From Geothrix sp. (GTDB lineage Bacteria; Acidobacteriota; Holophagae; Holophagales; Holophagaceae), in assembly GCF_030219325.1 (NCBI RefSeq), contig NZ_CP126625.1, positions 3,150,857 to 3,214,856 of the forward strand: a stretch of DNA of 64,000 nucleotides, written 5' to 3'. Below the pieces are notes generated by a model, which saw only the letters and a program-made list of their open reading frames with translations, was not told the DNA's origin and ran no database searches. Shown in pieces: positions 9,199 through 63,217 of this stretch (the first letter of the stretch is position 1; every line of letters starts with the position of its first letter). Position numbers and translations under genes: made by a program.

Positions 9199-10713
<1,515 letters not shown>

Positions 10714-37511: not shown

Positions 37512-37633
37512 ATTATTGATCAAATATGACTCAATGGTATTCAAATGTTGATTAGACTGAAGTAACTATTTCCGCTGTGATCCCGATCACCTACATTGAT
37601 CCGCACACTGGTCTCTCCCCCCAGGACACCCCC

Positions 37634-38758
37634 ATGTCTACGCCCAGCTCCGCCACGCCCAGCTTCGACCTCAGCACCCCGGTCGAGGCAAAGACAGCCA
37701 CGAACCCCCTCGGGCTCAGCCGCATCGACCACTTCCAGCTGACCGGTTCCATCGACCGGCTCGAGCCCCTCTACCGCCGCCTCGGCTTTGAGCGCCTAGC
37801 CGTGGGCAGGCACGCCTGGGGCTTCGTGGTCCACCTGCGCCAGCAGCGCATGGACATCCTGATCTTCGAGGCGGATGCGACCCACCCCGCCGGACGGTAT
37901 TTCCAGGCCCACGGCGAGGGCGTCTGCGCCCTGAACTTCGCGGTGGAGGACCTGGACATGGCTCTGGCGCGGGCCCGCTCCCAGGGGGCGCGGGTCATGC
38001 TCGAACCCCAGACCCATGCGCTCGGGGAAGGCACGCTGCGTTTCGCGGCCATCCAGGGGGTGGGCGATGTCTGGAACTACCTCGTGGAGCGGAAAGGGGA
38101 CCCCACCAGCTTCTGGCCTGGTCTCGTCGCCGAGCCCGCCCCGGCCTTATGCGATCCCGGCCTGGTGCGGGTGGACCACCTCACCAATAACGTGGGCCCG
38201 GGCGAGATGGAGGCCCTGGTGGACTTCTACGAGCGGGTCTACGGCTTCGTGGTCACCCGCGAGTTCCACATCCGGGGCGCCCTGGGTACAGGCCTGGATT
38301 CCAAGGTCGTACAGAGTTCCAACAACCAGGTGATCATCCCCATCAACCAGCCCACGGACGAGAAGAGCCAGGTCCAGGAATACGTGACCCGCCACCGGGG
38401 CCAAGGCGTCCAGCACATCGCCATGTCCACCAACGACATCTTCCACACCCTGCGCACCCTGCGCGACCAGGGCTTCCAGTTCCTCCGGGTCCCCGATACC
38501 TACTACGACCTGCTCCCGGGCCGCGTGGCCCGCAGCGGGTATACCGTCCGCGAGGACTTCTCCACCGTGAAGGAGATGGGCGTCCAGATCGACGGCGACG
38601 AGACCGGCTACCTCCTGCAGATCTTCAGCGAGGACCAGATCGGCCCGCTGTTCTTCGAGATCATCCAGCGGCGGGGGAACATGGGCTTCGGTGAAGGCAA
38701 CTTCCAGGCGCTGTACGACTCCATCGAGCTGGATCAGAAGAAGAGGGGCGTGCTCTAA
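37634..38758 (+). CDS. hppD: 4-hydroxyphenylpyruvate dioxygenase
   Basis: The protein has 374 residues and two VOC (vicinal oxygen chelate) domains. The iron ligands in the C-terminal half are H182 (VDHLTNN), H261 (VQHIAMSTND) and E342 (LFFEIIQR); GEGNFQALYDSIE near the end is the family's closing helix. It converts 4-hydroxyphenylpyruvate to homogentisate in tyrosine breakdown. ATG 37634 has CAGGA 8 bases upstream; an in-frame GTG lies 57 bp earlier. The ~120-bp gap upstream is unusually AT-rich and has two similar TCAAAT-containing stretches (about 37519-37532 and 37540-37551), possible regulator sites. The 3' end is partly duplicated downstream. Confidence 0.96.
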   Translation: MSTPSSATPSFDLSTPVEAKTATNPLGLSRIDHFQLTGSIDRLEPLYRRLGFERLAVGRHAWGFVVHLRQQRMDILIFEADATHPAGRYFQAHGEGVCALNFAVEDLDMALARARSQGARVMLEPQTHALGEGTLRFAAIQGVGDVWNYLVERKGDPTSFWPGLVAEPAPALCDPGLVRVDHLTNNVGPGEMEALVDFYERVYGFVVTREFHIRGALGTGLDSKVVQSSNNQVIIPINQPTDEKSQVQEYVTRHRGQGVQHIAMSTNDIFHTLRTLRDQGFQFLRVPDTYYDLLPGRVARSGYTVREDFSTVKEMGVQIDGDETGYLLQIFSEDQIGPLFFEIIQRRGNMGFGEGNFQALYDSIELDQKKRGVL

Positions 38759-38781
38759 TCCTCCGATCGTGATTCGCTCCT

Positions 38782-38833
38782 CGCCGGGTCCCGGCTCCGC
38801 AGGCTCCCCCGGAGCCTGCTCTGCCACCCGGCG
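38782..38833. repeat. REP-like nested palindrome between two copies of the hppD 3' end
   Basis: The outer arms are CGCCGGGT (38782-38789) and ACCCGGCG (38826-38833). The inner arms are GCAGGCTCC (38799-38807) and GGAGCCTGC (38811-38819) with loop CCC. Both stems are perfect. The size and nested form are like repetitive extragenic palindromes. No other copy was noticed in this window. Confidence 0.7.
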
Positions 38834-38841
38834 GTCGCGAC

Positions 38842-38878
38842 CATCGAGCTCGACCAGAAGAAGAGGGGCGTGCTCTAG
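38842..38878 (+). pseudogene. Duplicated 3' end of hppD (last ~11 codons and stop)
   Basis: This stretch encodes TIELDQKKRGVL-stop, the same as the C-terminus of HppD at 38723-38758. The DNA is nearly identical: differences are seen only at two third-codon positions and the stop (TAA versus TAG). It has no start and is not expected to be expressed by itself. It carries the 5' arm of the terminator that the first copy no longer reaches. Confidence 0.85.
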
Positions 38879-38888
38879 ACACGCCCCT
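38864..38888. terminator. Terminator overlapping the duplicated hppD stop codon
   Basis: AGGGGCGTG (38864-38872) pairs with CACGCCCCT (38880-38888) around CTCTAGA. The 5' arm is part of the duplicated hppD coding end. It can act for hppD on + and for the nuclease lipoprotein gene on -. Confidence 0.65.
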
Positions 38889-38912
38889 CATTTCCGCAAC
38901 GGCCCACCGCTT

Positions 38913-41900
38913 CTACTGGATCCGGAAGTCGTCCAGGTTCAGGCGGGCGGCGGGGGTGCCGTCCACGGCCAGCTTGAAGCGGACCGGCCCCGTGAGGTTG
39001 AGGCCGCTGAAGGTGGCGGTGCTCAAGGTGTTGGAACTGGCCGTCACGGAGGAGCCGACCTTGGTCCAGGTGCCGCCCTGGTCCTGGGAGTAGTAGAGCG
39101 AGAAGCTGGCCGTCTTTCCGGCCGTGCCATCGCTCTTGTACACCCCGTAGGCCACGCTGACGCTACTCGCCTGGGTGCTGGCGCTGCCGAAGTCGAAGTT
39201 CATCCAGACCGCGCTATTGGCTGCCGCCTTCATGCGGAGACCTTGCCCGTCGTTCTTGGCGTCGCTGGCGTCCGCCGCGTAGCTCATGGTGGTCACGAAG
39301 TGCCAGGAACCCGTGGATAGGGTGTAGTCCCCCGTGGCGTAGACCGTCCCCGTGCCGGCCCAGGTGAAGGCCTCCGACAGAGCTGTCGGCGGGGTGGCGA
39401 TCCCCACGGCGAAGGTGAGGGTCTTGGTGGTGGTGGCAAGGTCGCCGTCCGTGACGCGGACCGTGAGGGTCACGGTGCCGGTGGCGCCCGTCGCGGGCAC
39501 GATGTGGAGCACCGGACTGGCCATGGTGCCGGTGAAGCTGAGGCCGCTGTCGGGCACGATGCTCTGGTCGCTGGAGGAGGCGGTGAACGTCACGGCCAGG
39601 GGTGCGACATCATCGCTGACGGTGAAAGCGAGATCCTTGGCCGTGTCCGCCGGTGTGGTGTCCGAGGCGGGCAGGCCGGTGACGGTCGGGGCCTGGTTGC
39701 CGCCGGTGACCGTAACCACCCGCGTGACGGCGTTGCTCACGCCGAGCCCATCCGTGGCGGTGAAGGTGACGCTGTAGGTGCCGCCCGCGGTGTAGCTGTG
39801 GCTGGCGGTGGGCCCGTTGGCCGTCTGGCCATCCCCGAAGGCCCAGCTGGTGCTGGCGACGCTGTTGTTCGGGCTGGTGGCGTCCCCTTGGAAGGTGAGG
39901 ACCGTTCCCACGGGGGAGCTGATGTCCCAGCTGGGGGCGACCATGTGGACGTTGGGCTTGCCCATCACTTCGAAGGCGCTGCCCCAGCCGCGGACGTCCA
40001 CGGCCGTCTTGAAGGTGGCGGGCAGGGGGCTGGCGGGGGCCGGGAACAGGTCCAGACCGGTCAGGGCCTCGATGCGGGCCACCGAGGTCGTGTATTTCTG
40101 GATCTCCGCCTCGGACATGGCCAGGCCTGCCTTGTTGGGGGTCAGGACCGCCACCACCTTCGGCTGCCCAGGCGCCGTCTCGCGGACGACGACCTTCCAG
40201 AACCCGCTGGAGATGCGCACGGGCGCCACGGCCCCGGGAAGCAGGGGAGCACCGGCGTCGAAGGTGGGTCCGGTGTAGATCCAGATCCGGTTGAAGGTAT
40301 CGGCCAGGCCAGGTGCCCAGGCGCCGCCGGAGCCGGTGAAGCTCCCGCCCACCACCTGCTCCAGGTGGTTCCAGAAGTTGTTGTTGTGGTCCGTGTCCTG
40401 GGGGGCGACGTTGGAGAGCCGGCAGGAGTCCGTGCCGGCCTGGGAACCGTAGCGGTAGGCCAGGTCGGACATCATGACCTGGTGCCCCCGGGTCCAGCCG
40501 CTGCCGGAGTAGTCGCCATCCGTCACCTGCGGCGCGGCCAAGCGGTCATCGGCCAGGAAAGTTCGGGTGCCGTTGGCGAAGGCGGTGGTGAACTTGAAGT
40601 TCGCATAGGTCGTCCAGGCGGGATTCTTCAGTGTCTCGTCGTATCCCACGCGGAAGGCCCCGTGCGGGAAGGCCGTACCCACCTGGTACGAGGGCAGGAC
40701 CGTGAGGGGGCGACTGGGCACCGCCACCGGATCGCCGGCATAGGTGGGTTCCGGCGCCATGACGGTGAGGGTGGCGTTTTCGCTGGTGGTGGTGGCTCCG
40801 CTGCCATCCTTGACCACCACGCTGTAGGTGGCGCTGATCTCCTGGAGGTCCGTCGGGCCGACCGTGAGGCTGGTCCCCATCTCGCCGGGGATGTCCGTGC
40901 CGTTCTTCCGCCACTGGTAGGTGAGGGTGCCGATTCCCGTGGCCGCCACGGTGAAGGTGGCCCCCTCGGGGGCGATCACGTTGGCGCCCTGGGGCTGGGT
41001 CTGGATGACCGGGGCCTGGGCGCTGACCGTGATGGCGGCCTGGCTGCCCGTGAGGGTGGCGGACACCGTATCCGTGGCCGTCAGCGTCTGGGCTCCAGCG
41101 GTGTTCAGGGTCGCCATGAAGCTGTGGGCCCCGTTATCGGACCCCGCAAAGGCATAGTCGCCGGGCAGGATCGCCACGGGGTCCGTGCTGGTGATGTGGA
41201 TCGTTCCCGCATACCCCGTCGCCGTGTTGCCATAGGCATCCAGGGCCGTGACAGTGAAGGTGTGGGAGGCCCCGGATGTGGTGGGGCTCGTGAATCCCGT
41301 CACACCGAAGTGGGTGGCCACCGCGTTGACGGTGACGGCCTGGGTTCCCGTGATGGAACCGCTCACCGTGTCCGTCGCGGTGAGGGACTGGGAGCCGGCG
41401 GACTTCAGCGTGGCCGAGAAGGTGTGCGTTCCGCTGTCAGCGCCCGCAAAGGTGTAATCACCCGGGAGGGTTGCTGCGGCATCGCTGCTGGTGAAGTGGA
41501 CGGTTCCCGCATACCCGGGGACCGGATTGTTCGACGCATCCAGGGCCGTGATGGTGAAGGTGTGGGAAGTGCCCGCTGTGGTGGGGTTCGTGAACCCCGT
41601 CACGCCGAAGTGGGTGGCCACCGCGTTGACGGTGACGGCCTGGGTTCCCGTGATGGAACCGCTCACCGTGTCCGTCGCGGTGAGGGACTGGGAGCCGGCG
41701 GTCTTCAGCGTGGCCGAGAAGGTGTGCGTTCCGCTGTCAGCGCCCGCAAAGGTGTAATCACCCGGGAGGGTGGCTGCGGCATCGCTGCTGGTGAAGTGGA
41801 CGGTTCCCGCATACCCGGGGACCGGATTGTTCGACGCATCCAGGGCCGTGACGGTGAAGGTGTGGGAAGTGCCCGCTGCGGTGGGGTTCGTGAATCCCGC

Positions 41901-42866
41901 AACGCTGAAGTGGGTGGCCGCCGGGGCGGTCACTGTCAACATGGCGGTGCTGCTCAGAATCGACTGACTGGTGCCATTCAGGGTGTTGGTGACCAGCACC
42001 GTGTAGCTGCCCGCATCCGTGAGGGCCACGGGGTTGAGGGTGAGCGTGGCCGAGGTCTTCCCGGCGAGGTCTGCCCCGCCCTTCTTCCACTGGTAGGTCA
42101 GGGTGCCGTTGCCCGTGGCCCCGATGCTGAAGGCGGCGCTGCCCCCTTCGGTGACCGACTGGCTAGCGGGCTGGGTCCCGATCACGGGCGCCGTGGCGGC
42201 GGGATTCACCGTCAGGGTGGCGACGCTGCTGAGGGTCGCCTGACTGGTGCCATTCAGGGTGTTGGTGACCAGCACCGTGTAGCTGCCCGCATCCGTGAGG
42301 GCCACGGGGTTGAGGGTGAGCGTGGCCGAGGTCTTCCCGGCGAGGTCTGCCCCGCCCTTCTTCCACTGGTAGGTCAGGGTGCCGTTGCCCGTGGCCCCGA
42401 TGCTGAAGGCGGCGCTGCCCCCTTCGGTGATGGCCTGGCTGGCGGGCTGGGTCCCGATCACGGGCGCCGTGGCGGCGGGATTCACCGTCAGGGTGGCGAC
42501 GCTGCTGAGGGTCGCCTGGCTGGTGCCATTCAGGGTGTTGGTGACCAACACCGTGTAGCTGCCCGCATCCGTGAGGGCCACGGGGTTGAGGGTGAGCGTG
42601 GCCGAGGTCTTCCCGGCGAGGTCTGCCCCGCCCTTCTTCCACTGGTAGGTCAGGGTGCCGTTGCCCGTGGCCCCGATGCTGAAAGCGGCGCTGCCCCCTT
42701 CGGTGATGGCCTGGCTGGCGGGCTGGGTGGAGATGACCGGAACTGTGGCTGCAGGTGTCGGCGCGGGGTTGGACCCGCCACCGCCGCCACAGGCCGGACC
42801 GAGAACCAGGGTACCCGCCAGGAAGAAACAGGCCACCCACCGGCCCAGGAAGCGTGTCTGGAACAT
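38913..42866 (-). CDS. Surface lipoprotein nuclease (NucA/NUC1-like) with Ig-like and PKD repeats
   Basis: The protein has 1317 residues. The ATG at 42866 has GGAG 6 bases upstream; another ATG lies two codons earlier. A lipobox (LVLGPAC) and Gly-rich linker follow. Then come three near-identical 92-residue Ig-like repeats, three ~100-residue repeats (FTVTALDASNNPVPGYAG...), and one more Ig-like domain. The DNA/RNA non-specific endonuclease domain spans about 715-930, with WTRGHQ (H795), SNVAPQ and NNNFWNHLE; canonical DRGH reads TRGH. A PKD domain (WAFGDGQTANG), a cadherin-like segment and a C-terminal beta domain complete it. It should cut DNA/RNA at the cell surface with Mg2+ or Mn2+. It is the last gene of an operon with an NHL protein and a TonB-dependent receptor. 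Confidence 0.88.
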   Translation of the reverse strand: MFQTRFLGRWVACFFLAGTLVLGPACGGGGGSNPAPTPAATVPVISTQPASQAITEGGSAAFSIGATGNGTLTYQWKKGGADLAGKTSATLTLNPVALTDAGSYTVLVTNTLNGTSQATLSSVATLTVNPAATAPVIGTQPASQAITEGGSAAFSIGATGNGTLTYQWKKGGADLAGKTSATLTLNPVALTDAGSYTVLVTNTLNGTSQATLSSVATLTVNPAATAPVIGTQPASQSVTEGGSAAFSIGATGNGTLTYQWKKGGADLAGKTSATLTLNPVALTDAGSYTVLVTNTLNGTSQSILSSTAMLTVTAPAATHFSVAGFTNPTAAGTSHTFTVTALDASNNPVPGYAGTVHFTSSDAAATLPGDYTFAGADSGTHTFSATLKTAGSQSLTATDTVSGSITGTQAVTVNAVATHFGVTGFTNPTTAGTSHTFTITALDASNNPVPGYAGTVHFTSSDAAATLPGDYTFAGADSGTHTFSATLKSAGSQSLTATDTVSGSITGTQAVTVNAVATHFGVTGFTSPTTSGASHTFTVTALDAYGNTATGYAGTIHITSTDPVAILPGDYAFAGSDNGAHSFMATLNTAGAQTLTATDTVSATLTGSQAAITVSAQAPVIQTQPQGANVIAPEGATFTVAATGIGTLTYQWRKNGTDIPGEMGTSLTVGPTDLQEISATYSVVVKDGSGATTTSENATLTVMAPEPTYAGDPVAVPSRPLTVLPSYQVGTAFPHGAFRVGYDETLKNPAWTTYANFKFTTAFANGTRTFLADDRLAAPQVTDGDYSGSGWTRGHQVMMSDLAYRYGSQAGTDSCRLSNVAPQDTDHNNNFWNHLEQVVGGSFTGSGGAWAPGLADTFNRIWIYTGPTFDAGAPLLPGAVAPVRISSGFWKVVVRETAPGQPKVVAVLTPNKAGLAMSEAEIQKYTTSVARIEALTGLDLFPAPASPLPATFKTAVDVRGWGSAFEVMGKPNVHMVAPSWDISSPVGTVLTFQGDATSPNNSVASTSWAFGDGQTANGPTASHSYTAGGTYSVTFTATDGLGVSNAVTRVVTVTGGNQAPTVTGLPASDTTPADTAKDLAFTVSDDVAPLAVTFTASSSDQSIVPDSGLSFTGTMASPVLHIVPATGATGTVTLTVRVTDGDLATTTKTLTFAVGIATPPTALSEAFTWAGTGTVYATGDYTLSTGSWHFVTTMSYAADASDAKNDGQGLRMKAAANSAVWMNFDFGSASTQASSVSVAYGVYKSDGTAGKTASFSLYYSQDQGGTWTKVGSSVTASSNTLSTATFSGLNLTGPVRFKLAVDGTPAARLNLDDFRIQ
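41020..41930 (-). repeat. Three ~300-bp tandem repeats in the nuclease lipoprotein gene
   Basis: Each unit encodes about 100 residues beginning THFxVxGFT and ending TGTQAVTVNAVA or similar. The two 5'-most units (on the minus strand) are almost identical at DNA level over long stretches, including synonymous sites; the third has diverged. Confidence 0.88.
41930..42740 (-). repeat. Three 276-bp tandem Ig-like repeats in the nuclease lipoprotein gene
   Basis: Each unit encodes 92 residues starting PVIxTQPASQ and ending TLTVNPAATA. The spacing of the shared CCTTCGGTGA landmark is exactly 276 bp twice (42145, 42421, 42697). DNA identity between units is very high, which implies recent duplication or gene conversion. 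Confidence 0.9.
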
Positions 42867-42906
42867 GGTCATCTCCGGAGGCGGCCGTCGGTCAAGGCCA
42901 CGAAGG

Positions 42907-42940
42907 CGCCAGGGGACCCGATGGGCCGGGCCCCCTGGCG
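42907..42940. terminator. GC-rich hairpin between nuclease and NHL-protein genes
   Basis: CGCCAGGGGACCCG pairs with CGGGCCCCCTGGCG at 13 of 14 positions with a 6-base loop. No T-tract follows on the minus strand, so it may attenuate transcription or stabilise an mRNA 3' end rather than terminate fully. Confidence 0.4.
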
Positions 42941-42958
42941 ATGGTGCAGTTGGTCAGG

Positions 42959-43021
42959 CTACTGGTTGGCCGGAGCCACCACCTGATAGACGGAAACCTT
43001 GGTGTCTGGTGGAACGTTCAC
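42959..43021 (-). pseudogene. Remnant C-terminus of a second NHL-lipoprotein copy
   Basis: The 21 codons after the NHL-protein stop read VNVPPDTKVSVYQVV then APANQ and stop. The last ten residues resemble the end of the intact protein just upstream (SVYTAVAPANK): SVYxxVAPAN is shared while the DNA has diverged. It starts with an in-frame GTG but has no ribosome binding site. It is most simply the tail of a lost paralogue. Confidence 0.6.
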
Positions 43022-43026
43022 CCGAA

Positions 43027-46000
43027 CTACTTGTTGGCAGGAGCGACAGCCGTGTAGACCGAATTGCCAGAAGTCAGCACGAGGTCACCCGTCGAAGTGA
43101 TGGAGATTCCCTGGGGGGAGAACACGTAGCCACCCGTGAGATTGCCGGGATCCCCGGTGGTGCGGTCGCTGTTCAGCAGGCCCATGCGTTGCCCGTAGTA
43201 GTTCGGGGCGATCGTGCTGGTGGGGGTTCCGACCAGGGTGGCCACATTGTTGCTGTTGCCAGTATCGATCACCCGGATGGCGTTGTTGGCGGTATCCGTC
43301 ACATAGACATACCCATTCCCGTCTGCGACAAGGCCGACGGGCGTCTTGAAGGTGGCCGTGGCGGCGGTACCATCGAGGAAAGCGCCAGTGGGCGTGGTGC
43401 CCGCCGCAACGCCCACGATGGCCAGGGCGCCGCCGGACAGGTCGAAGGACTTGACCTGGTTGGTGCCCGTGAAGGCTACCCACAGGGTCTTGGTCGCGCC
43501 GGCCTGGATGGCAATGCCAGTGGGGGTGCCGGACCCACCGGTGACGAGGACACTGGTGGCATTGGCGTTGGCGAGGTCCACCTTGTAGACGTTGTTGGCG
43601 GTGAAGTCCGTGAAGTACAGGTTCGTCCCATCCACGACCATGCCCTGGACGTTCAGGCTGGCCGCGGCCGGGAAGGTGCCGGTGAGCGTGAAGCTGAGGT
43701 CCTCCGTGAAGAAGGGCTGCCCTGAAATGGGCGTGAAGCGGCGGATCTTCTTGGTGGTTCCGGTATCGGCCACGAAGAGGGCCGTGAGCGCTCCCGTCCC
43801 GTCCACCTGGGCCGCGAGACCCTTCGGACTGAAGAAGATGATCGCGTTGCTGTTAGTGTCCTTCATCGTCGTCACTGTGCCATCCGCGGCGATGATGCGG
43901 ACGAGGTTGTTGCCCGTATCGGCGACGAAGGTCTTGCTTCCGCCAGGCAGCGTGGCGAGGTTGGCGCCCGTCGTCAGGCTTCCGGTGGCCAGGCTGCTGA
44001 AGCGGAACTGGGCGACAGCGCCAAGGCCGTCCATGTTTCCGTAGATCCGGGGACCACCGGCGAAGGCGTAGTTCTGGTTGGCCGGATCCTCCACGGTGAA
44101 AGCCGTTCCGGCCTTGGGGAATCCGTTGGCGTCCATCCCGGAAATGCTGACGCAGCGCACGGATTGGGTATAGAAGAGGCCCGTTTCCGCGTCCGCGACA
44201 TAAAGCTTTGATCCATCGCTGCTGAGGGTGATGCCATAGGGATAGGCGATGGTCGCGACGGTGTTGGCCGCGGTCGGCAGGCCCCCATCCAGGGTCTGAG
44301 CCGCATTCTGGTACCCGGTCGTGTAGGTACCGGCCTTGCCGACCACGGTGATCAGGGCTCCCGCATAGGTCCCACCGGCCGGCACCATGCGGATGGCAGC
44401 ATTGTCACGGTCAGACATGTAGAGGTTGCCCTTGGCATCCACCGCGACGGCCATGGCGGTCTTGAGGGTGCCGGTGGTGGCGGTCAGGCTGTCCGCGAAC
44501 CCGGCCGTCCCCGTGCCGGCGTAAAGGGAGACGGTCGGCGTGGCCGGGGCCAAGTCCACCTTGGCGATCTTGTTCGTGCCGATGATGTAGAGGAGCTTCC
44601 GTCCCCCGTTGAAGTCCTTGGCCATCTGTCCGGCCGAGTTGGCGGCGATGACGGACGTGATGTCCAGGATCTGGGTGGGCGCGGGGCTCGCGGCCTTGAG
44701 GTCCATGCTGTAGAGGTAGGTGTTTGGGGTGCTGTAGGTGACGCAATACATGATCTGATTGCTGTCGATCACGAGGCCATTGGCATTCAACGTGAAATTC
44801 GGCATCACGCTCGGGGTGTAGGTTCCGTCCGCGTTCCGGGCCAGCTTCAGCAGGCGGCGGGTGGTATAGGTTTCACCGCTCACGTAGACATCGCCGGTGA
44901 CGGGATCCACGGCGACGGCCCGCGGGTTGGACATGGTGGTGGCGACCAGGTTGTCGGTCGCGGCGCCCTGGACGCCCGGGGTTCCACCGATGGTGCGGAC
45001 CTTCCGGTCGGAGCTGATCCGGCGGAGGGAGTGGGCGGAGTATTCGCCCGCGAAGATGGCTCCGTTGTCGGCCGGATAGTCGCTCATGGTGAGGACCTGG
45101 GTGCGGTAGAAGCGCGCCGTGGAGGTCCCCTTGGAATCGGGATCCCCGTCCAGCGTGCCCCGGCCGCTGCCGTAGGAGCCGGCCACGTGGTACAGGTCGC
45201 GCTGGGCCACGAACCCGGTCTTGGTGGCGCTCTTCAGATCATTCTGGGCAGTCAGGGTGTAGGTCTGGCGGCCGGGCAGGAGGTTGGTGACGGTGAAGGA
45301 ACGGGCAGCGCCCGACAGGTCGCCGCTGATCTTGGTTCCGGCGGGATCCTTGACGAACTGGGTGACGGGAACGCCACTGGTGATGGACCAGGTGATGGGG
45401 GCCTGGGTGCTGCCGAAGGGGACCACGGCGGGGCCGAAGCTCCCGATGGTGATGTCACCGGCATCCACGTGGACCGTGGCCGTGGTGGTGAAGTCACCGG
45501 GCTGCACGGTCATGGTGTAGACCTGGGTCGCCGTGGGCGCCGTGAGATTGAAGGTGCCCGTGGTCGTGGAGGGCGTGTAGGGCGTGGGCTGGACCGTGGG
45601 TGTGATGGTGAAGCTGGTGACGCTGGGATTCACGGACCAGGTGAGCACCACCGTGCCTCCCGGGCCGGCGGGGTTACCCGCGCTGGTGGGGGAGCTGAGG
45701 CTGAAGGCGGGGGCGGGGTTCACCAGGATGGAAAGCGTGCCATCCACGAAACCGCCGCTGTTGGTGGCCCGGACGATGATGTGGGAAGTGTGCGGGAGGC
45801 TGACGGCTTCGTTGGGGGTTCCGCTGATGGCCCCGGTGGAGCTGCTCAGGGAGAGTCCATTGGGCAGGGGATCGCTGGTCGGAGCCAGGGCGAAGGTGCT
45901 CAGGCCCGGCTGGGCGGAGCCCAACAGGATCGGCACGGCGGCCGCGGCCATGGGCACCGTGTTGAAGAGGGACACGGAGGCCGGATTGTAGGTGAGGCTG

Positions 46001-46701
46001 GTGGGAGCGGTGTCCTTCAGGGTGAAGGAACGGGTGCCGGTGGTGATGGTATTGGCCGCGTTCTTCACATCACAGGTGAGCTGAAGGACCGTGCCTACGG
46101 TGCTGCCGGCCGTGAAGCTGAACGTGTTGGCCGTGGCGGCACTGACGGCCGTTCCACCGGCAATGGACCACTTGTAGGTACAGCCGGCCTGGGCGGGGAC
46201 GGAGGCCGTCAGCCCGGTGGTGCCGATGGTGAGCGTGGAGGCCGGGTCGGCGCTGGTGGTGATGGTGGCATCCGCGAGGCCGGGGATCGCGATCTGGACC
46301 TGGCTGTTGACAGCCACGCCCTTCGCATTGGTCACCGTCAAGGTGTAGGTCGTGGGCGTGGTGATGGGCCCCACGGGGACCGGGACATTGGTCGTCACGG
46401 AGAGGTTGCCAGGCGTGATGACGGCTGTTCCGCCAGTCACGGCGAAGGTCCCACGGAGGTAGATGGAAGACCCGCTCACGATGGAGATGGTGGTGCCGGT
46501 CTTTGGCGGCTCGGGGCTCGTGGGGTCGGGCAGAGTGAAGGTCTTGTCCTTGCATGCGAGGAAGGAGGAGATGGCGGGCGCGGGATCCTTGTAGGAGCTG
46601 GGATTCGAGGCGCAGCCTGTGTGCAGGGCGGCAAGGCCGAGGCCCATGGACAGGGCCAGCAGGATCCTGCCGGACCTCTGGCGCAGTGAGTGGATGGACA
46701 T
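43027..46701 (-). CDS. Large NHL-repeat lipoprotein with Ig-like N-terminal domains
   Basis: The protein has 1224 residues from the ATG with AGGAG 5 bases upstream. The lipobox LAALHTGC marks a lipoprotein. The N-terminal ~480 residues are Ig-like/putative cell-surface domains (TYTLTVTNAKG; the putative-Ig phrase DPLPNGLSLSSSTGAISGTP). The C-terminal ~730 residues are NHL-type beta-propeller repeats (NPRAVAVDPVTGDVYVSG, AVAVDAKGNLYMSDRDN, GLVADGNGYVYVTDTANNAIRV). Such propellers bind glycans, nucleic acids or proteins. It lies 51 bp after the TonB-dependent receptor and before the nuclease lipoprotein; a substrate-binding partner of the receptor is a reasonable guess. Confidence 0.85.
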   Translation of the reverse strand: MSIHSLRQRSGRILLALSMGLGLAALHTGCASNPSSYKDPAPAISSFLACKDKTFTLPDPTSPEPPKTGTTISIVSGSSIYLRGTFAVTGGTAVITPGNLSVTTNVPVPVGPITTPTTYTLTVTNAKGVAVNSQVQIAIPGLADATITTSADPASTLTIGTTGLTASVPAQAGCTYKWSIAGGTAVSAATANTFSFTAGSTVGTVLQLTCDVKNAANTITTGTRSFTLKDTAPTSLTYNPASVSLFNTVPMAAAAVPILLGSAQPGLSTFALAPTSDPLPNGLSLSSSTGAISGTPNEAVSLPHTSHIIVRATNSGGFVDGTLSILVNPAPAFSLSSPTSAGNPAGPGGTVVLTWSVNPSVTSFTITPTVQPTPYTPSTTTGTFNLTAPTATQVYTMTVQPGDFTTTATVHVDAGDITIGSFGPAVVPFGSTQAPITWSITSGVPVTQFVKDPAGTKISGDLSGAARSFTVTNLLPGRQTYTLTAQNDLKSATKTGFVAQRDLYHVAGSYGSGRGTLDGDPDSKGTSTARFYRTQVLTMSDYPADNGAIFAGEYSAHSLRRISSDRKVRTIGGTPGVQGAATDNLVATTMSNPRAVAVDPVTGDVYVSGETYTTRRLLKLARNADGTYTPSVMPNFTLNANGLVIDSNQIMYCVTYSTPNTYLYSMDLKAASPAPTQILDITSVIAANSAGQMAKDFNGGRKLLYIIGTNKIAKVDLAPATPTVSLYAGTGTAGFADSLTATTGTLKTAMAVAVDAKGNLYMSDRDNAAIRMVPAGGTYAGALITVVGKAGTYTTGYQNAAQTLDGGLPTAANTVATIAYPYGITLSSDGSKLYVADAETGLFYTQSVRCVSISGMDANGFPKAGTAFTVEDPANQNYAFAGGPRIYGNMDGLGAVAQFRFSSLATGSLTTGANLATLPGGSKTFVADTGNNLVRIIAADGTVTTMKDTNSNAIIFFSPKGLAAQVDGTGALTALFVADTGTTKKIRRFTPISGQPFFTEDLSFTLTGTFPAAASLNVQGMVVDGTNLYFTDFTANNVYKVDLANANATSVLVTGGSGTPTGIAIQAGATKTLWVAFTGTNQVKSFDLSGGALAIVGVAAGTTPTGAFLDGTAATATFKTPVGLVADGNGYVYVTDTANNAIRVIDTGNSNNVATLVGTPTSTIAPNYYGQRMGLLNSDRTTGDPGNLTGGYVFSPQGISITSTGDLVLTSGNSVYTAVAPANK

Positions 46702-46752
46702 GCGGACTCCTGAATGGCGCAGGGCAGAGTGGAGGGGATTCATGCCAGCCTC

Positions 46753-49700
46753 CTAGAACCGGGCCTTGAGGGTGAACTGGACTTCGCGGGATCGGTTGTC
46801 CGGGGAATCAATGGCCCCGAAGTACGGATTCACGCTCCCCGAGGACAGGGTGTACTGGGTCTGGCGGGTGTACTGGTTGGCCCAGTTGAAGACGTTGTAG
46901 ACGTCGATGGTCCCCTCCAGGGAGAGGGCCCGGGTGACCCGGAACGGTCGGGAGAGCCTCAGGTCGAAGGTCTTCTCGCTGGGCTGGCGATGGGAGTTGC
47001 GGCCATTCACCGTATCGATGTACTTTCCGTCGCCGTTCTGGTCGGCGTAGTAGATCCCGTTCCAGGGCCGGCCGGTGGTGTAGGTCGTGATGCCCGACAG
47101 CCGGATGCCGAAGAAGGTGGGGGCGAACCAGGCCAGGGTGGCGCGGAAGGCGTGGTCGTTGTCGCTCAGGGCCCAGGAGGACAGGGGATCCGCCGGATTC
47201 TCCGTGAGGGCGTTGGTGGAGGTGAGGGTGGCCCGCTCGTTGGAGTTGTTGTCCTCGGCCTTGGCGAAGGTCAGGCTGCTCTTGAAGCCCCAGCCGCTGC
47301 CGGGCTTCCGGCCAGCTTCCAGCACCACGCTGCGGTACCGCCCCTCGCCGTCATACTTGGAGAGGATCACGTCGCCGAAACCGCTGAGATCCAGGGCGCG
47401 GCCACGGACGATGGCACGCCCAGGGCGCGCGCCCGTGGAGAACCGGTTCCAGGTCGAGGGGTAGCCGTCGTTGTAGATCGCGGTGGGATCCACGGTGCTG
47501 GTCCCCGGCGCCATCTGGCCCAGGTTGATGTTCACGGCGTACTGAAGGTTGTTGAACTTCTTGTAGGTGCCGCGGATCCCCACGGTAAAGCCGTTGCCCA
47601 GATCCTGCTCGACGCCCAGGGAGGTCGCTCGGGCCTGGGTCATCTTGGCCTCGGGATCGATGATGGTGGGCACGATGGTGTCCACCTTGAGGTTGGGATC
47701 GGTCAGCAGGGTGCTGGTGGGAATGCGGGTCAGGGAGCCCGGGCCCGTCAGGGGGCCGCTCCACCGCTGGGAGGCGGAGAGCAGGCCGGTGGGGTCGAAC
47801 AGGGCGGGGTTCGCCGAGGCCGTCATGTAGTAGGACACCAGGTTGATGCCGTTGTTCATGATGGCGCCGGAGGTCGTCTGGCCCGGGTTGCTCACGCTGA
47901 ACCAGCCGTAGCCGCCCCGGATGATGGTCTTCGCGTTGCCAAAGAGGTCGAGGGTGAATCCGAAGCGGGGGTCCATGCTCTTGTCGTTGGGGGCGCGGTC
48001 CAGGCCCTGGAGCTTGGGGTTGGGGCTGGGGTTGCCGCTCCAGATCTCGGTGGTGTAGCGCAGGCCCAGGCTGACCAGGAGGCGCTTGTTGAGGAGGGCG
48101 CCGTTCTGGGCCTGGACGTAGCCGGCCATGAACTTCTCGCTGAAGCTGCTGACGCCATCCACGGGCGAATAGCCCTGGGTGTAGGTCACGCCGCTCAGGG
48201 AGGCTGCCGGGGCGCCCGTGAACCAGGACTGGGCCAGGGCATAGGTGGGGAAGACCCAGCTACCGTTGCCATTGGGCAGGTAGCGGTTCTTCATGTCGAT
48301 GAACTGGAGATCCACGCCGCCCTTGAGGACCCAGTCCCCGGTCATGAAGGTGAGGTTGTCCTGGATCTGGGTGGTGGTCTCATCCGTGGTGCGGGGATCG
48401 ATGTAGTACTGGCCTGCGTTGATGTCGTAGACCGAGCCCACCTTCTGGATGCGCACGGGGGACGAGACGGTGCTGTTGGGCGTCGTGGGCCGCTTCTCGT
48501 TGGAGAGTTGGACCCGGGCCTCGTTCAGCAGGCTGGGGGACAGGGTGGAGCTGAGCTCCAGCACCGTGGAGAGGCTGGTGAACTTCATGGTGGAGTTGCC
48601 GGACTCGGCGGTGTCGTTGTGGCGCACCCCGGCATAGATGTCGTTGAGCCCCTGGTAGTTCTGGGAGTTCATCCGGAGGGTCGCCCGGTGGTCCTGGTTG
48701 ATGTCCCAGTCGAGGCGGCCCATGAACACCAGGTTCTTCTGCTCGTCGGTCCACGCCCGGTGGCTCTCGTCCGCCAGAGTGCGGCCCGGCATGGTCACGA
48801 GGAGGGCGCCCATGCCGGTCCCCGGCGCAAAGAAGGCGTTGGAGGCGGCGCTGCCGTCCCCGAAGAGGGGGATGCTGTCCTCCCGCTTGCGGGCCATTTC
48901 CACGTTCACGAAGTAGTGCAGCTTGTCCTTGAGGATGGGGCCGCCCAGGTTGAAGCCCATCTGCAGGGTCTGGTAAGTGCGGGTCCGGGCCTCGTCGGTG
49001 TTCACGCCGTTGGCGTCGTAGGGCACGGGCTTGACCTTGGCCGTCAGGGAGTTGGGACGGAACAGCATGAAGGCCGTGCCCTGGACCTCATTGGTGCCGG
49101 TCTTGGTGACGGCGTTGATGACCGCGCCCACGGCATCGCCGAACTGGGCATCGAAGGAATTGGTGATGACCTGCAGCTCCTTGATGGAGTCCTGGCCGAA
49201 GGTGAAGGGGATGCGGGTGCCGCCCCGCTGTTCGCCGTTGAACTTGGAGTTGTAGCTGCCGCCGTCGATCTGCAGGTTGTTCTGGATGCCGCGGGCACCC
49301 TCGACCGTCGTGTAGTAGCTGGTGTTGCCCACGGCCGCGCCGGGGGTGAGCTGCACCAGGTCCGTGAAGTTGCGGCCGTTCACGGGGATGGCGTCGACCA
49401 GTTCCTGGGAGATGGAGGATTGGGTGTTGATCTGGGCCGCATCCAGGGCCGTGGCATCGGCCACCACCGTGACCACCGCGCTGGCTTCCACCGCATCGAG
49501 GCTGAAGTTCTGGAGCGCGGTCTGGCCCAATCCCACGCGCAGGGAAGCATCTTTGGCGGTCCTCAATCCAGGGGCGGCGACGGTCAGCTCATAGGTGCCC
49601 ACGGGCAGGAAGGCGAAGTGGTACTCGCCATTGGCATTGGTGGTGGTGGTGCGGGTCAGCCCGGTCTCCAGGTTCCGCAGGGTGAGCGAGGCGCTGGCGA

Positions 49701-49827
49701 CCACGCCCTTGGCCTTGGACTTGACCGTCCCCCGGAGGGCCCCCGAGGTGGTGCTGGTCTGGGCGTGGGCGACCACCGAGCAGGCCAGGGCTGAAAGGAG
49801 GAGGACTGCGGTTCTCTGGGCTGGCAT
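46753..49827 (-). CDS. TonB-dependent receptor, Oar-like, with carboxypeptidase-regulatory domain
   Basis: The protein has 1024 residues. AAGGAG lies 5 bases before the ATG of a signal peptide (VLLLSALACSVVAHAQ). Residues about 30-110 are the carboxypeptidase-regulatory beta sandwich (GTVKSKAKGVVASASLTL, NANGEYHFAFLPVGTYELTV). The plug domain (IPVNGRNFTDLVQLTPG, YNSKFNGEQRGGTRIPF, QFGDAVGAVINAVTKTGTN) and a 22-strand-type outer-membrane barrel ending QFTLKARF follow. The Oar-like type is abundant in Acidobacteriota. It imports bulky substrates with TonB energy. As first gene of an operon with a propeller lipoprotein and a nuclease lipoprotein, it may take up nucleic-acid fragments; the substrate is inferred from context only. 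Confidence 0.92.
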   Translation of the reverse strand: MPAQRTAVLLLSALACSVVAHAQTSTTSGALRGTVKSKAKGVVASASLTLRNLETGLTRTTTTNANGEYHFAFLPVGTYELTVAAPGLRTAKDASLRVGLGQTALQNFSLDAVEASAVVTVVADATALDAAQINTQSSISQELVDAIPVNGRNFTDLVQLTPGAAVGNTSYYTTVEGARGIQNNLQIDGGSYNSKFNGEQRGGTRIPFTFGQDSIKELQVITNSFDAQFGDAVGAVINAVTKTGTNEVQGTAFMLFRPNSLTAKVKPVPYDANGVNTDEARTRTYQTLQMGFNLGGPILKDKLHYFVNVEMARKREDSIPLFGDGSAASNAFFAPGTGMGALLVTMPGRTLADESHRAWTDEQKNLVFMGRLDWDINQDHRATLRMNSQNYQGLNDIYAGVRHNDTAESGNSTMKFTSLSTVLELSSTLSPSLLNEARVQLSNEKRPTTPNSTVSSPVRIQKVGSVYDINAGQYYIDPRTTDETTTQIQDNLTFMTGDWVLKGGVDLQFIDMKNRYLPNGNGSWVFPTYALAQSWFTGAPAASLSGVTYTQGYSPVDGVSSFSEKFMAGYVQAQNGALLNKRLLVSLGLRYTTEIWSGNPSPNPKLQGLDRAPNDKSMDPRFGFTLDLFGNAKTIIRGGYGWFSVSNPGQTTSGAIMNNGINLVSYYMTASANPALFDPTGLLSASQRWSGPLTGPGSLTRIPTSTLLTDPNLKVDTIVPTIIDPEAKMTQARATSLGVEQDLGNGFTVGIRGTYKKFNNLQYAVNINLGQMAPGTSTVDPTAIYNDGYPSTWNRFSTGARPGRAIVRGRALDLSGFGDVILSKYDGEGRYRSVVLEAGRKPGSGWGFKSSLTFAKAEDNNSNERATLTSTNALTENPADPLSSWALSDNDHAFRATLAWFAPTFFGIRLSGITTYTTGRPWNGIYYADQNGDGKYIDTVNGRNSHRQPSEKTFDLRLSRPFRVTRALSLEGTIDVYNVFNWANQYTRQTQYTLSSGSVNPYFGAIDSPDNRSREVQFTLKARF

Positions 49828-50386
49828 CAAGACTCCTTGCCCCACAGGGGCAGATCAGTAAGAAGGAAGCGGAACGGTTCAGGACGAGGGCAAGCTCGTT
49901 CCGGCTTCGGTCGTGGCGTTGGGGGCCGAGCCCCCGGGATTGCAGACGATCAGGACGGTATCCCATCGAAGGTCTCCTTCAACCTTCGGGGTGTCTATGA
50001 CCGATGTCACGGAACAACTCTGTAACGCCTCTTCATCAGCAGACTTCCAGACCCCCTGACTCCGGGTAAAATTCCCTTGCGGCATGGTTTGCTACATATG
50101 TAACAAATATGGGAATAGGGAGTTAGTCCGAACAGCCGGACCTCAGGCCCCCGAAAAGGCACCGGCGTGATGCCCACCCACCCTCCCGGCCTGTGAAGAA
50201 AAAGTCAGGTAGTCCAGAGGCCATCCCTCCGTCTGACGCACCTGCCGCTGGGTGAGCGAGATCGGTCCGCCGGGGTGGCGGCCGTGAAGGCGGTACCTGG
50301 TCCTGGCGGCTCCAGACGAAGACTCCGGGATGCCACCATCCGAACCTCCCTGGGCCCCGCCGCATCCCATGCGTTAAGGTGGTTCC
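49828..50386. other. Long intergenic/leader region between divergent genes
   Basis: These 559 bp separate the divergent receptor operon and pseudopilin gene. On the minus strand the stretch next to the receptor contains several hairpins: CGAAGGT...ACCTTCG (about 49967-49990), GGGGGC-TCG-GCCCCC (about 49921-49935), and GCCCC-TGT-GGGGC immediately before the receptor ribosome binding site (49840-49852). A palindromic CTACATATGTAAC lies in an AT-rich patch at about 50092-50110, a likely promoter or operator zone. No known riboswitch class was recognised. No convincing gene is seen in 50120-50386. Confidence 0.5.
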
Positions 50387-50788
50387 ATGCGCCTTTTCCC
50401 TTCCCGCCAGCGGGGCTTCACCCTCATCGAACTGGTCGTGGTCATGACCCTCCTGGCCCTGCTGGCCACCGTGGGGTTGGCCGGGTACCGGCAGAAGGTG
50501 CGGGCGGCCAAGGAATCCGTGCTCAAGGAGAACCTCTTCCAGATCAACCATGCCCTGGAGCAGCACCGGGCGGACCGGGGCAAGTACCCGTCCAGCCTGG
50601 GGCCCCTGCGGGAACTGGGCTACCTGCGGGACATCCCCTACGACCCCATGACCCAGTCCCGGGAGACCTGGCAGACCGAGCTGGAACCTCCTGACCCGGA
50701 CAATCCCGATGCCGAACTGGGCGTCTTCCGGGTGCGCAGCGGTTCCGCCGAGAAGGGCTCGAACGGCATCTCCTACAACGAATGGTAA
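50387..50788 (+). CDS. Type II secretion/type IV pilin-like pseudopilin (GspG-type)
   Basis: The protein has 133 residues. The prepilin cleavage motif RQRGFTLIEL lies at residues 8-17, followed by the hydrophobic alpha-1 helix (VVVMTLLALLATVGLAGY). The C-terminal domain (LREYLGYLRDIPYDPMT-like: GPLRELGYLRDIPYDP) has the GspG pattern in which the chain ends in a short beta region (NGISYNEW). It would be processed by prepilin peptidase and assembled in a secretion pseudopilus or minor pilus. No other secretion gene is adjacent. Confidence 0.88.
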   Translation: MRLFPSRQRGFTLIELVVVMTLLALLATVGLAGYRQKVRAAKESVLKENLFQINHALEQHRADRGKYPSSLGPLRELGYLRDIPYDPMTQSRETWQTELEPPDPDNPDAELGVFRVRSGSAEKGSNGISYNEW

Positions 50789-60160: not shown

Positions 60161-62780
60161 TCAAGGAAGGAAGGTGATGTCGTCGAGGTAGTAGGTCTTG
60201 GCAGCCCCGGCCGCGGCCCCCGTGGTTCCGAAGTTGAAGAAGATCGAGAGCTTGTTGTAGGTGAACGCGAGGTTGAGGGCGGCGGTGCCGGTGGCCTGGT
60301 TGGCGAAGTTGAAGGTCAGGGTCTGCCAGCCGGCAGCCGTGGTGACCGTGGCCTCCGTTTCACAGGTATGAGTGACGTCTGCGGCATCCTCGACCTTGAC
60401 GCGCACCTGGATCCCCGCATCCGGCGACCACACGCGCGCCGAGATCTGCTTCCTGGTCGCACTGAAGGGCAGCGTCGGGATCGAGTTGTTCGCGCCGGTG
60501 GACACCGTGGTGCCCGCCCACAGCTCGGCCGTGGCGGACTTCACGACCTTGGCGACCTTGTTGCTGCCACCGGCCGGATCGGTCACCACGGTGGAATCCT
60601 CCGCGCCGCCGAAGCCCGTCAGGGTGTAGGTGAGGGCGGCGTCGTCGAAGGTGATGGGACTATAGCTGGCTCCGCCAGCACCCCCGCTGCCAGTCCCACC
60701 GATGAAGGTCACGTCGTCGCAGTAGTAGGTCCTGGCCGAGCCCACGGTGACCCCGGCGGTGCCGAAATCGAAGAAGATCGAAACCTTGTTGTAGGTCTTG
60801 GTCACGTCCAGGGCCGCAGTGCCCGTGGCCGGGCTGGCGAAGTCGAAGGTCAGGGTCTCCCAGGCATTGGCCACGGTGGTGGTCGCCTCCGTCTCGCAGG
60901 TGATGGTGTTGTTCGAGGCGTCCTCCACCTTCAGCCGAATCTTGATGCCCACGACAGGGGAATAGGTCCGCACGGTCATCCGGGTGTTGGCGGCATCGAA
61001 GGGGAGCTTGCCGACGGACTGGTTGGCCCCGGTAGACAGGGTGGTCCCCGCCCAGGTCTCGGCCGTGGCCGACTTCACCACCTTGGCGACCTGGTTGGCC
61101 GCACCACTCGGATCCGCCGCGAGGGTGGAGTCTTCGGCACCGCCGAAGCCCGTGAGCGTGTAGGTCGTGGCACCGGTCTCGAAGGTCAGGGTGCTGAACG
61201 CCAGCGCCCCGCCGCCGCCCGAGCCTGTTCCGCCGATGAAGGCCAGGTCATCCAGGTAGAAGGTCTGGGCCCCCGCCGTGGCTCCGGCCGTCCCGAAGTT
61301 GAAGAAGACGGAGACCTTGTTGAAGGTCTTGCTGACATCCAGGGCCGCGGTGCCCGTGGCCGGGCTGGCGAAGTCGAAGGTCAGCGTCTCCCAGGCATTG
61401 GCCACCGTGGTGGTCGCCTCCGTCTCGCAGGTGATCGTGTTGTTCGCGGCATCCTCGACCTTCAGGCGGACCTTGATGCCGATGGCCGGCACATAGACGC
61501 GCGCCGTCATCCGAGTATTGGCGGCATCGAAGGGGAACTTCCCGACGGACTGGTTCGCGCCTGTGGAGATGGTCGTGCCCGCCCAGGTCTCGGCGGTGGC
61601 GGACCGGTTGACCTTCACCACCTTGTTGGTGCCACCGGTGGGATCAACCACCACCGTGGAATCCTCCGCCCCGCCAAACCCGGTCAGGGTGTAGGTCAGG
61701 GCGCTGTCATCGAAGGTGAGGGTGCTGAAGCCCACCGCGCTGCCGCCGGCGCTCATCGCCACATCATCGAAGTAGAAGGTCTGGGCACCCGCGGTGGCGC
61801 CCGCCGTTCCGAAGTTGAAGAAGACCGAGACCTTGTCGTAGGTCTTGCTGACATCCAGGGCTGCGGTGCCCGTCGCGGGACTGCTGAAGTCGAAGGTCAG
61901 GGTCTCCCAGGCGTTGGCCACCGTGGTGGTCGCCTCGGTCTCGCAGGTGATGGTGTTGTTGGCGGCATCCTCCACCTTCAGGCGGACCTTGAGGCCCGTG
62001 GCGGGAGCGTAGACCCGCAGGGACATCCGCGTGTGGGTGGCATCCAGGGGGATCTTCCCTACGGACTGGTTCGCGCCGGTGGAGACGGTGGTACCGGCCC
62101 AGGTCTCGGCCGTGGCGGACCGGTTGACCTTGCCCACCTTGTTGGAACCCCCGGCCGGATCGGTCACCACGGTGGAGTCCTCGGCGCCACCGAAGCCCGT
62201 CAGGGTGTAGGTCAGGGCGGCGTCATCGAAGGTGATGGCACTGAACCCCGTGGCACCACCGCCACCGCCCGTCCCGCCAATGAACGCCACATCATCGAAG
62301 TAGTAGGTCTTGGCGCCGGCCGTGGCTCCGCTCACGCCGAAGTTGAAGAAGATGGTCGCCTTGTCGTAGCTGCTGGCCACGTTCAGGGCAGTGGTTCCCG
62401 TCGCCTGGTGGGCAAAGTCAAAGGTCAGGGTCTCCCAGGTGTTGGACACCGTGGTCACGGCCTCGGTCTCCACCGAAGTGGCGGGGGTGGTGTGGTCCTC
62501 GACCTTGAGCCGGACGGGAATGCCTGCATTGGGGGAATAGACCCGCACGGTCATCCGGGTGTTGGCCGCATCGAAGGGGATCTTCGCAGCGAAGCCAAGG
62601 GTGCCATCGGCCGTCAGGGTGGTGCCGGCCCAGGTCTCGGCCGTGGCAGACTTGACGACCTTGGCCACCTGGTTGGTGCCGCCTGCGGGATCCAGGACGA
62701 TGCTGGAGTCGTCGGCGCCCCCAAACCCGAGCAGGCCGTAGTTCACGGTGGCCGAGTCGAACGTGACCGGCAGGCTCATC
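60161..62780 (-). repeat. Five tandem ~530-bp repeats in the lipoprotein gene
   Basis: Approximate units are 60161-60665, 60665-61210, 61210-61735, 61735-62255 and 62255-62780. Units 2 to 4 (on + coordinates) share long identical DNA stretches, e.g. around GTCTCCCAGGCATTGGCCAC. The unit nearest the N-terminus is the most diverged. Confidence 0.85.
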
Positions 62781-63217
62781 TGGGTCAGCACCACCGGGCG
62801 GGTATCGAAAGCCTGGGTGACACTGGCGCCGCTGGTGTTGGCTACGCCGGCGGCGCTGTGGAACGCGCCCGCAGCCACGCTGACGGTCAGGGTCCCGACC
62901 GAATTAGCGGGGGGAGTGACCACCAGGGTGTACTGGTTGGCCGAGACTTTGGTCGTGCTGGCAGCCCCCGTGCCGCTGGTGACCGTCACGGCCGAGGCCG
63001 GGAAGCTGCTCACGGGTTGGCTGAAGGTGAACATGAAAGTCACGGGGCCTTTGGCTGCGGTGCCGCTGGTCCCCCCGATGACCACGGCCGGCGCCGGGTT
63101 GTAGGTCTGGACGGGGGCGGGGTGAGTGGCCTTGCCGCCGCAGCTGGTCAGCAGGATCAACGGGGCTGCCAGGAGCGCCAGCGGAACCAGGAATCCTCGC
63201 AGTCGACGGCGTGTCAT
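60161..63217 (-). CDS. Lipoprotein with five glycan-binding-like repeats
   Basis: The protein has 1018 residues. The ATG has GAGGAG 5 bases upstream. The lipobox is LILLTSC. An Ig-like domain of the SbsA/BIG type (about 40-145: GPVTFMFTFSQPVSSFPASAVTV) is followed by five repeats of 170-180 residues of the form FDDxxLTYTLTGFGGAEDST ... SATAETWAGTT ... TRMTVRVYSP ... VRLKVEDA ... WETLTFDF ... FFNFGTxGATAGAxTYYxDDV. Domains of this form are found with beta-glucan (laminarin)-active enzymes, which fits the GH17-like genes downstream. It probably displays glycan-binding modules on the cell surface; the ligand is inferred. Confidence 0.8.
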   Translation of the reverse strand: MTRRRLRGFLVPLALLAAPLILLTSCGGKATHPAPVQTYNPAPAVVIGGTSGTAAKGPVTFMFTFSQPVSSFPASAVTVTSGTGAASTTKVSANQYTLVVTPPANSVGTLTVSVAAGAFHSAAGVANTSGASVTQAFDTRPVVLTQMSLPVTFDSATVNYGLLGFGGADDSSIVLDPAGGTNQVAKVVKSATAETWAGTTLTADGTLGFAAKIPFDAANTRMTVRVYSPNAGIPVRLKVEDHTTPATSVETEAVTTVSNTWETLTFDFAHQATGTTALNVASSYDKATIFFNFGVSGATAGAKTYYFDDVAFIGGTGGGGGATGFSAITFDDAALTYTLTGFGGAEDSTVVTDPAGGSNKVGKVNRSATAETWAGTTVSTGANQSVGKIPLDATHTRMSLRVYAPATGLKVRLKVEDAANNTITCETEATTTVANAWETLTFDFSSPATGTAALDVSKTYDKVSVFFNFGTAGATAGAQTFYFDDVAMSAGGSAVGFSTLTFDDSALTYTLTGFGGAEDSTVVVDPTGGTNKVVKVNRSATAETWAGTTISTGANQSVGKFPFDAANTRMTARVYVPAIGIKVRLKVEDAANNTITCETEATTTVANAWETLTFDFASPATGTAALDVSKTFNKVSVFFNFGTAGATAGAQTFYLDDLAFIGGTGSGGGGALAFSTLTFETGATTYTLTGFGGAEDSTLAADPSGAANQVAKVVKSATAETWAGTTLSTGANQSVGKLPFDAANTRMTVRTYSPVVGIKIRLKVEDASNNTITCETEATTTVANAWETLTFDFASPATGTAALDVTKTYNKVSIFFDFGTAGVTVGSARTYYCDDVTFIGGTGSGGAGGASYSPITFDDAALTYTLTGFGGAEDSTVVTDPAGGSNKVAKVVKSATAELWAGTTVSTGANNSIPTLPFSATRKQISARVWSPDAGIQVRVKVEDAADVTHTCETEATVTTAAGWQTLTFNFANQATGTAALNLAFTYNKLSIFFNFGTTGAAAGAAKTYYLDDITFLP

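Follow-up and report, generated by a model that had tools for sequence, protein, structure and literature searches.

The subject of this study is a stretch of 64,000 nucleotides (the window), bases 3150857-3214856 of a single-contig 3.7-Mb Geothrix genome, which carries on its minus strand consecutive genes for an Oar-type TonB-dependent transporter (R), an NHL-propeller lipoprotein (P) and a predicted nuclease (N). We consider that these three proteins probably, if by no means certainly, form a module for scavenging nucleic acids. This reading comes from a comparison of 77 genomes of the family and 93 of the class, in which P stays with R, nucleases of several lineages adjoin the pair, and R-P pairs are also found among genes for nucleotide phosphohydrolases. 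An initial annotation, made from the sequence alone, had described receptor, propeller lipoprotein and nuclease as consecutive on one strand, and the open reading frames and domains are indeed found in that arrangement:

46753..49827, minus strand: R, Oar-type TonB-dependent transporter of 1024 residues, with signal peptide, CarboxypepD_reg domain, plug region and barrel
43027..46701, minus strand: P, NHL-propeller lipoprotein (cysteine of LHTGC), with an immunoglobulin-like (Ig-like) N-terminal part and apparently two NHL-type β-propellers
43033..45207, minus strand: propeller region of P, residues 470-1194 of the predicted model
38913..42872, minus strand: N, apparently anchored nuclease of 1319 residues, with lipobox-like LVLGPAC, Ig repeats, Endonuclease_NS and PKD domains
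40038..40658, minus strand: Endonuclease_NS domain of N (residues 739-945), with the RGH, N and E residues

Predicted properties of the three proteins

By its domain composition R is an Oar-type TonB-dependent transporter, matching CarboxypepD_reg (E 3.7e-19) and OMP_b-brl_4 (E 1.9e-52). A PF13620 N-terminal extension and the barrel are present in all 14 members of the R clade, which we define by 65% identity or more. The plug (PF07715) is detected in four of the 14, with a best E of 1.9e-4, and the R of the window is without a match. The predicted model of R is weak (mean pLDDT 55.8); its fold matches, as judged from the 50 listed of 871 in the PDB, are TonB-dependent transporters, SusC-type proteins included. 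No NCBIfam model, and so no SusC-type model, matched R at E 0.01, and the R profile matched no PDB sequence at 0.01; the NCBIfam search of P and N likewise gave no match.

P starts with a lipoprotein-type signal and an Ig-like part, which are followed by NHL repeats. Its predicted model is fair in the propeller part alone (residues 470-1194), which resembles known NHL propellers (Z up to 30.3); the fold is predicted from the P of the window only. The SusD/RagB family is absent among the P matches at E 0.01. The 50 fold matches listed for P do not include BtuG or XusB, which tells nothing either way. The listed matches also include RNA-bound NHL propellers (Brat, Lin41 and TRIM71); these have the fold alone in common with P and we give them no weight.

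N is a predicted non-specific DNA/RNA endonuclease with its catalytic residues kept. Its match to Endonuclease_NS (PF01223; E 1.2e-25) scores 90.9 bits, compared with a curated cut-off of 23, and it has Ig and PKD domains in addition. The nuclease domain aligns with EXOG, EndoG and the Serratia nuclease, and retains RGH (as TRGH), the Asn of LSN and the Glu of WNHLE; the His of RGH, then the Asn and Glu, are the residues that we take to be catalytic in N. The nuclease of one relative, G062 (relatives are given G numbers), has RSH instead of RGH, with the His retained.

The nucleases that adjoin R-P also appear to differ from the others in their anchoring. A lipobox-like cysteine ends the signal in 10 of 10 adjacent copies, compared with 3 of 13 readable stand-alone copies (Fisher 3.6e-4), a contrast that is only indicative because the search pattern is permissive enough to pick up R signal peptides too, the choice of starts gave a lipobox bonus, and the copies are related. 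The G021 copy was read by eye, and the G029 and G068 copies, with the N-terminus off the contig or broken, were dropped. An anchor of this kind would be needed by an enzyme held at the surface next to its transporter.

Linkage of P and of nucleases to R

The R clade is found in 14 of the 77 family genomes and is sharply delimited, the next-best R copy being only 55% identical. A scan with patterns from the R alignment, across one genome for each of 84,980 species, returned 13 loci, 11 of them in the R clade. All are labelled Holophagaceae, Geothrix or Holophaga except for two in metagenome-assembled genomes labelled Deltaproteobacteria and Bacillota, and the DNA of both is that of family members in our set.

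P lies directly after R in all 14 R-clade genomes, and N adjoins the pair in 10. In six of these (the window, G021, G066, G067, G060 and G062) N follows P in the same direction; in G060 and G062 P is split by a contig break, its end lying together with N on a second contig. In the other four (G005, G012, G013 and G014) N is divergent from R. In G045 and G068 contig ends hide whether N adjoins R-P. The initial annotation would have been contradicted by a nuclease gene not kept beside the other two in relatives; a nuclease is kept there in 10 of the 14 genomes, and these nucleases are of several lineages.

Both the R-P linkage and the adjacency of N are beyond chance. Endonuclease_NS occurs in 24 of the 77 family genomes, with none or one per genome in the 47 of the window's genus; all 14 genomes that carry R have it, compared with 10 of the 63 that lack R (Fisher 2.3e-9 for the family and 2.0e-5 for the genus, shared ancestry uncorrected). 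None of the 15 stand-alone N loci with gene calls has an R- or P-like neighbour on the sides visible in the contig; in G033 a weakly R-like gene lies two genes from the stand-alone N. Nor is there a common insertion site for R-P-N. The module adjoins an HPPD gene in the window and in G021, lies next to mur-type genes in four Geothrix genomes (Pfam-checked in G005 only), and is beside thiolase and symporter genes in G066 and, judged by eye, in G067. Genes in relatives were called by a codon-usage script written for this analysis rather than by a standard caller, and several neighbours were named from the look of the N-terminus or by BLAST to a Pfam-checked copy.

Repeated recruitment of nucleases

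A tree of 25 nuclease cores shows that N is often swapped for other lineages of the same family. The tree holds 25 of 33 rows, eight short paralogues or fragments having been excluded here and from the lipobox and neighbour counts; the label adjacent or stand-alone was taken from gene positions, and all three approximately unbiased (AU) tests were run after the first tree had been seen. The tree requires five changes between the two labels, of which strong branches make at least four unavoidable; random labels would require about eight. A single clade of the ten adjacent nucleases is rejected (AU p 1.4e-8); members of four tree groups are represented. Between the window and G021 the R proteins are 86% identical and lie at the same genomic site, yet the nucleases are from different lineages (p 2.6e-4); G060 and G062 have near-identical R proteins and again nucleases from different lineages (p 1.8e-6). 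The adjacent nucleases are thus polyphyletic, and have been recruited or swapped repeatedly.

The window itself bears probable traces of shuffling of the module. A 40-bp remnant in the gap between P and N (42994-42955) matches the 3' end of P in G013 and in other Geothrix copies, and is read as the footprint of a replacement of P. At the other end of N, the last ~37 bases (38721-38757) of the HPPD gene (37577-38758, plus strand, TIGR01263) are repeated, with 94.6% identity, at 38841-38877, between HPPD and N; this second copy is 88.6% identical over 44 bases to the HPPD end of G021, and looks like a recombination scar. A P remnant in the P-N gap and an HPPD tail duplicated beside N are together our grounds for proposing that the module has been shuffled here. 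The window's P shares 60% identity with the P of G029 and 44-46% with those of G021, G005, G012, G013 and G014, although the window's R is closest to that of G021.

R-P pairs among nucleotide phosphohydrolases

In G065 the R-P pair lies between genes for a PF05761 5'-nucleotidase and a PF01663 phosphodiesterase on one side and Metallophos and 5_nucleotid_C genes on the other. The PF05761/PF01663 side is also visible in G068, where the contig ends after P. G066 and G070 have homologues of these four genes around another Oar-like transporter, which is 27-29% identical to R and has no P beside it; G067 shows part of this arrangement. Since the same enzymes flank either R-P or another transporter, R-P took the transporter slot of a nucleotide-phosphohydrolase locus, or the reverse. 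In genus g9 (loci L153, L154, L116 and L113) the 5'-nucleotidase, phosphodiesterase and 5'-nucleotidase genes of this locus are constant and the TonB transporter in the middle is exchanged.

Other candidate links proved less informative. In G029 the gene next to R-P encodes a PF06189 5'-nucleotidase; we had taken this as strong support, which is weakened by the presence of the gene in 53 of the 77 genomes. The enzymes that would act after uptake, and the permease, belong to the ordinary outfit of the family: a homologue of the G065 phosphodiesterase is found in 60 of 77 genomes, PF02872 in 76 and the CNT permease PF07662 in 61. PF02872 and the permease, near-universal or about equally common with and without R, fail to separate the R genomes and were dropped as R-linked genes.

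Proposed role and alternatives

The scavenging of nucleic acids put forward in the initial annotation, or of nucleotides, gains real support, because N lies beside most R-P pairs and two pairs with no adjacent N in view lie among nucleotide phosphohydrolases; the uptake role itself we infer. N, lipid-anchored in the outer membrane, would cut extracellular DNA or RNA; P, placed over R as a propeller lid, would capture the fragments or hand them on; and R would import them using TonB energy. A periplasmic phosphodiesterase and 5'-nucleotidases, encoded elsewhere or, as in G065, beside R-P, would release phosphate and nucleosides, and a CNT permease would take up the nucleosides. What the sequences show are the protein families, the catalytic residues, the linkage of P to R, the repeated recruitment of nucleases and the transporter exchange in a nucleotidase locus; surface display, lid contact, the substrate and the direction of transport are inferred, and the purpose might be the supply of phosphorus, carbon or bases.

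Several observations weigh against this proposal. The P of the window has no bulk positive charge (net -1, pI 6.6), and 13 of the 14 P proteins computed have net charges from -9 to +1. The only one at +9, from G042, is overlong and has a doubtful start; the 14 were drawn from 18 P genes, with G060, G062, G015 and G037 left out. N has a net charge of -27 and its nuclease domain a net charge of 0. N is present and clearly away from R-P in G029 and G065, and the stand-alone copy in G065 also looks lipid-anchored. On the nuclease tree the adjacent copies group together to some degree, as few changes being reached in 16 of 500 shuffles. The 5'-nucleotidase gene of G029 is present once per genome, fragments apart, in the many genomes that have it, so that its adjacency to R-P may be an accident of the insertion site. 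The CNT permease, found in 12 of the 14 genomes with R (absent from G021 and G060) and in 49 of the 63 without, is about as common in either group, and so speaks neither for the link nor against it. Searches upstream of R gave no regulator site and no RNA. Finally, sister R-P pairs, with R proteins 50-51% identical, occur in another setting in G015, G037, G042 and G044. These pairs (L119, L120, L117 and L118, respectively) adjoin genes for an AcrB-type RND pump and small YHS proteins, Pfam-checked in L117 and L118 only, with two of the three YHS matches below the curated cut-off; the four genomes have no Endonuclease_NS. Such surroundings suggest that R-P may be a general platform with changing substrates, the sister pairs perhaps applying the same transporter platform to metals. 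L118 also contains genes that are ars-like by eye.

These RND and YHS neighbours and the near-neutral charge of P are what would be expected if R-P imported some other ligand, such as a metal chelate or a phosphate-bearing cofactor, N being adjacent by way of the same shortage (phosphate or metal starvation), with the pair a general lidded transporter whose neighbour varies; the propeller-lidded transporters of known ligand described in PMC10404256 and PMC13142918 carry B12 or ferric siderophores. We nevertheless think this unlikely, as the R clade has come to have nucleases and nucleotide phosphohydrolases as neighbours several times independently, and a shared shortage needs no physical linkage each time. 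It is still less likely that N serves in defence or in biofilm turnover, cutting invading or extracellular DNA, with R-P an unrelated neighbour by chance or through a shared promoter. Secreted nucleases have many roles, and stand-alone nucleases of the N family are frequent among relatives; however, nucleases from four tree groups beside 10 of 14 R-P pairs would be hard to obtain by neglect, and a search with the PADLOC models at E 0.01 gave no match to R, P or N, a result on which we rejected anti-phage defence.

What is known of Oar gives a further point against import. According to extracts of PMC6434023, the Oar of Myxococcus xanthus, which belongs to the same subclass as R, is required to secrete the protease PopC, and the R clade has the Oar domain set, as far as the N-terminal extension and barrel of all 14 members and the plug of four show. 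R could by analogy be an exporter that helps N or P to reach the surface. This we regard as very improbable, given that P is beside R without an adjacent N in G029 and G065, that N-family nucleases occur in 10 of the 63 genomes without R, and that adjacent nucleases bear lipoprotein-type signals, which have their own export route. We keep nucleic-acid scavenging as the preferred role of R, P and N.

Gene starts, transcription and other features of the window

Three further features lie around P and N:

42955..42994, minus strand: second P 3' end, the 40-bp remnant in the P-N gap, 87.5% identical to the P 3' end of G013
42909..42938, minus strand: G+C-rich hairpin in the P-N gap, seen by eye, without a T-run and unreported by the terminator scan
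38863..38889, minus strand: terminator-like stem-loop directly 3' of N, from the terminator scan

An AAGGAG ribosome-binding site, seen in 11 of the 12 upstream regions listed, supports 49827 as the start of R. For P the more likely start is 46701, 51 nt past R, because this spacing resembles that of several relatives; an in-frame ATG at 46743 is a possible alternative upstream. R and P look like an operon. Membership of N is less sure, since the P-N gap is 154 nt long and contains the hairpin, possibly a transcription boundary, and in four relatives N and R diverge; the simple three-gene operon of the initial annotation gives way to an R-P pair with a separable nuclease. The terminator scan of the region gave three terminator-like sites, fewer than the chance level (mean 5.3 in shuffles), and a sigma-70 scan of 38700-50500 found no promoter-like site. 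No known RNA was found upstream of R at E 1, the loci of relatives not having been searched. A 20-bp near-palindrome upstream of R (50107-50088, minus strand) was discarded as a lead because G021 does not show it. Very long open frames on the strand opposite to R (46714-49794, plus strand) and to N (39504-42986, plus strand) are probably a by-product of G+C-rich codon use.

Elsewhere in the window, two S-adenosylmethionine (SAM) riboswitches (RF00162) at 2893-2996 and 9199-9299 (plus strand) precede 3063-4931 and 9427-10713, and are the only known RNAs found. There is another large lipoprotein-like protein at 60161-63160 (minus strand), with Big_12 and carbohydrate-binding-type domains, and a Tricorn-type protease at 14075-17350 (minus strand).

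Relation to known systems

The best reading of R-P is by analogy with BtuB-BtuG and XusA-XusB of Bacteroides, which import vitamin B12 and xenosiderophores, respectively, and likewise combine a TonB-dependent transporter with a surface β-propeller lipoprotein (PMC10404256 and PMC13142918, in part). XusA also has an N-terminal carboxypeptidase-like domain, as in R. R-P would then be a propeller-lidded transporter of the same kind, with the contact between lid and barrel postulated. It differs in that P has NHL-type propellers, apparently two, and Ig-like domains, in having a nuclease as partner, and in coming from another phylum.

The initial annotation had called the system SusCD-like. The logic holds, in that SusCD polysaccharide loci also bring together a transporter, a binding lipoprotein and a linked polymer-cutting enzyme (excerpts of PMC8115612). 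The family relationship does not, given that neither R nor P matches a SusC or SusD model; in addition, the enzyme is a nuclease and N is sometimes divergent. The PusCD loci of Flavobacterium, described in the same excerpts, contain phosphomono- and diesterases with the TonB transporter, as do G065 and G068, whereas PusD is SusD-like; the induced extracellular nucleases EndA1 and EndA2 of Flavobacterium are listed there as orphan, outside the PusCD cluster. The Oar of M. xanthus, which has CarboxypepD_reg, plug and barrel, shares the first and last of these with all R-clade members and the plug with the four in which it is detected, and the extracts of PMC6434023 name no propeller or nuclease partner for it. 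N shares its family and catalytic residues with EXOG, EndoG and the Serratia nuclease, but is large, apparently lipid-anchored and equipped with Ig and PKD domains.

To our knowledge, how pieces of extracellular DNA or RNA cross the outer membrane of Gram-negative bacteria as food is poorly known. A search of titles and abstracts in the open-licence literature found no description of an uptake unit that joins a transporter to a nuclease, although this is weak evidence that none has been described, and the main text of a study of sediment DNA degraders (PMC8289736) does not contain 'TonB', 'SusC' or 'outer membrane'. The nuclease alone is not new, since secreted NUC-type nucleases have been reported from Acidobacteriota in sludge (PMC11495043, in part); the novelty is the linkage of a nuclease to a transporter of the lidded type. 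It is possible, and we propose it tentatively, that this is a lidded TonB transporter dedicated to nucleic acids outside the Bacteroidota, in which an NHL propeller replaces SusD and the anchored nuclease is repeatedly swapped, making it the nucleic-acid counterpart of a polysaccharide utilisation locus.

Lipoprotein-capped transporters are stated, in the Discussion of PMC10404256, to seem exclusive to Bacteroidetes, a limit that R-P would break if it is indeed propeller-lidded. With a defined three-gene module available in named strains of Geothrix (G. campi SG10, G. rubra Red803, G. paludis SG195 and G. oryzisoli SG189), the import of DNA and RNA would become testable.

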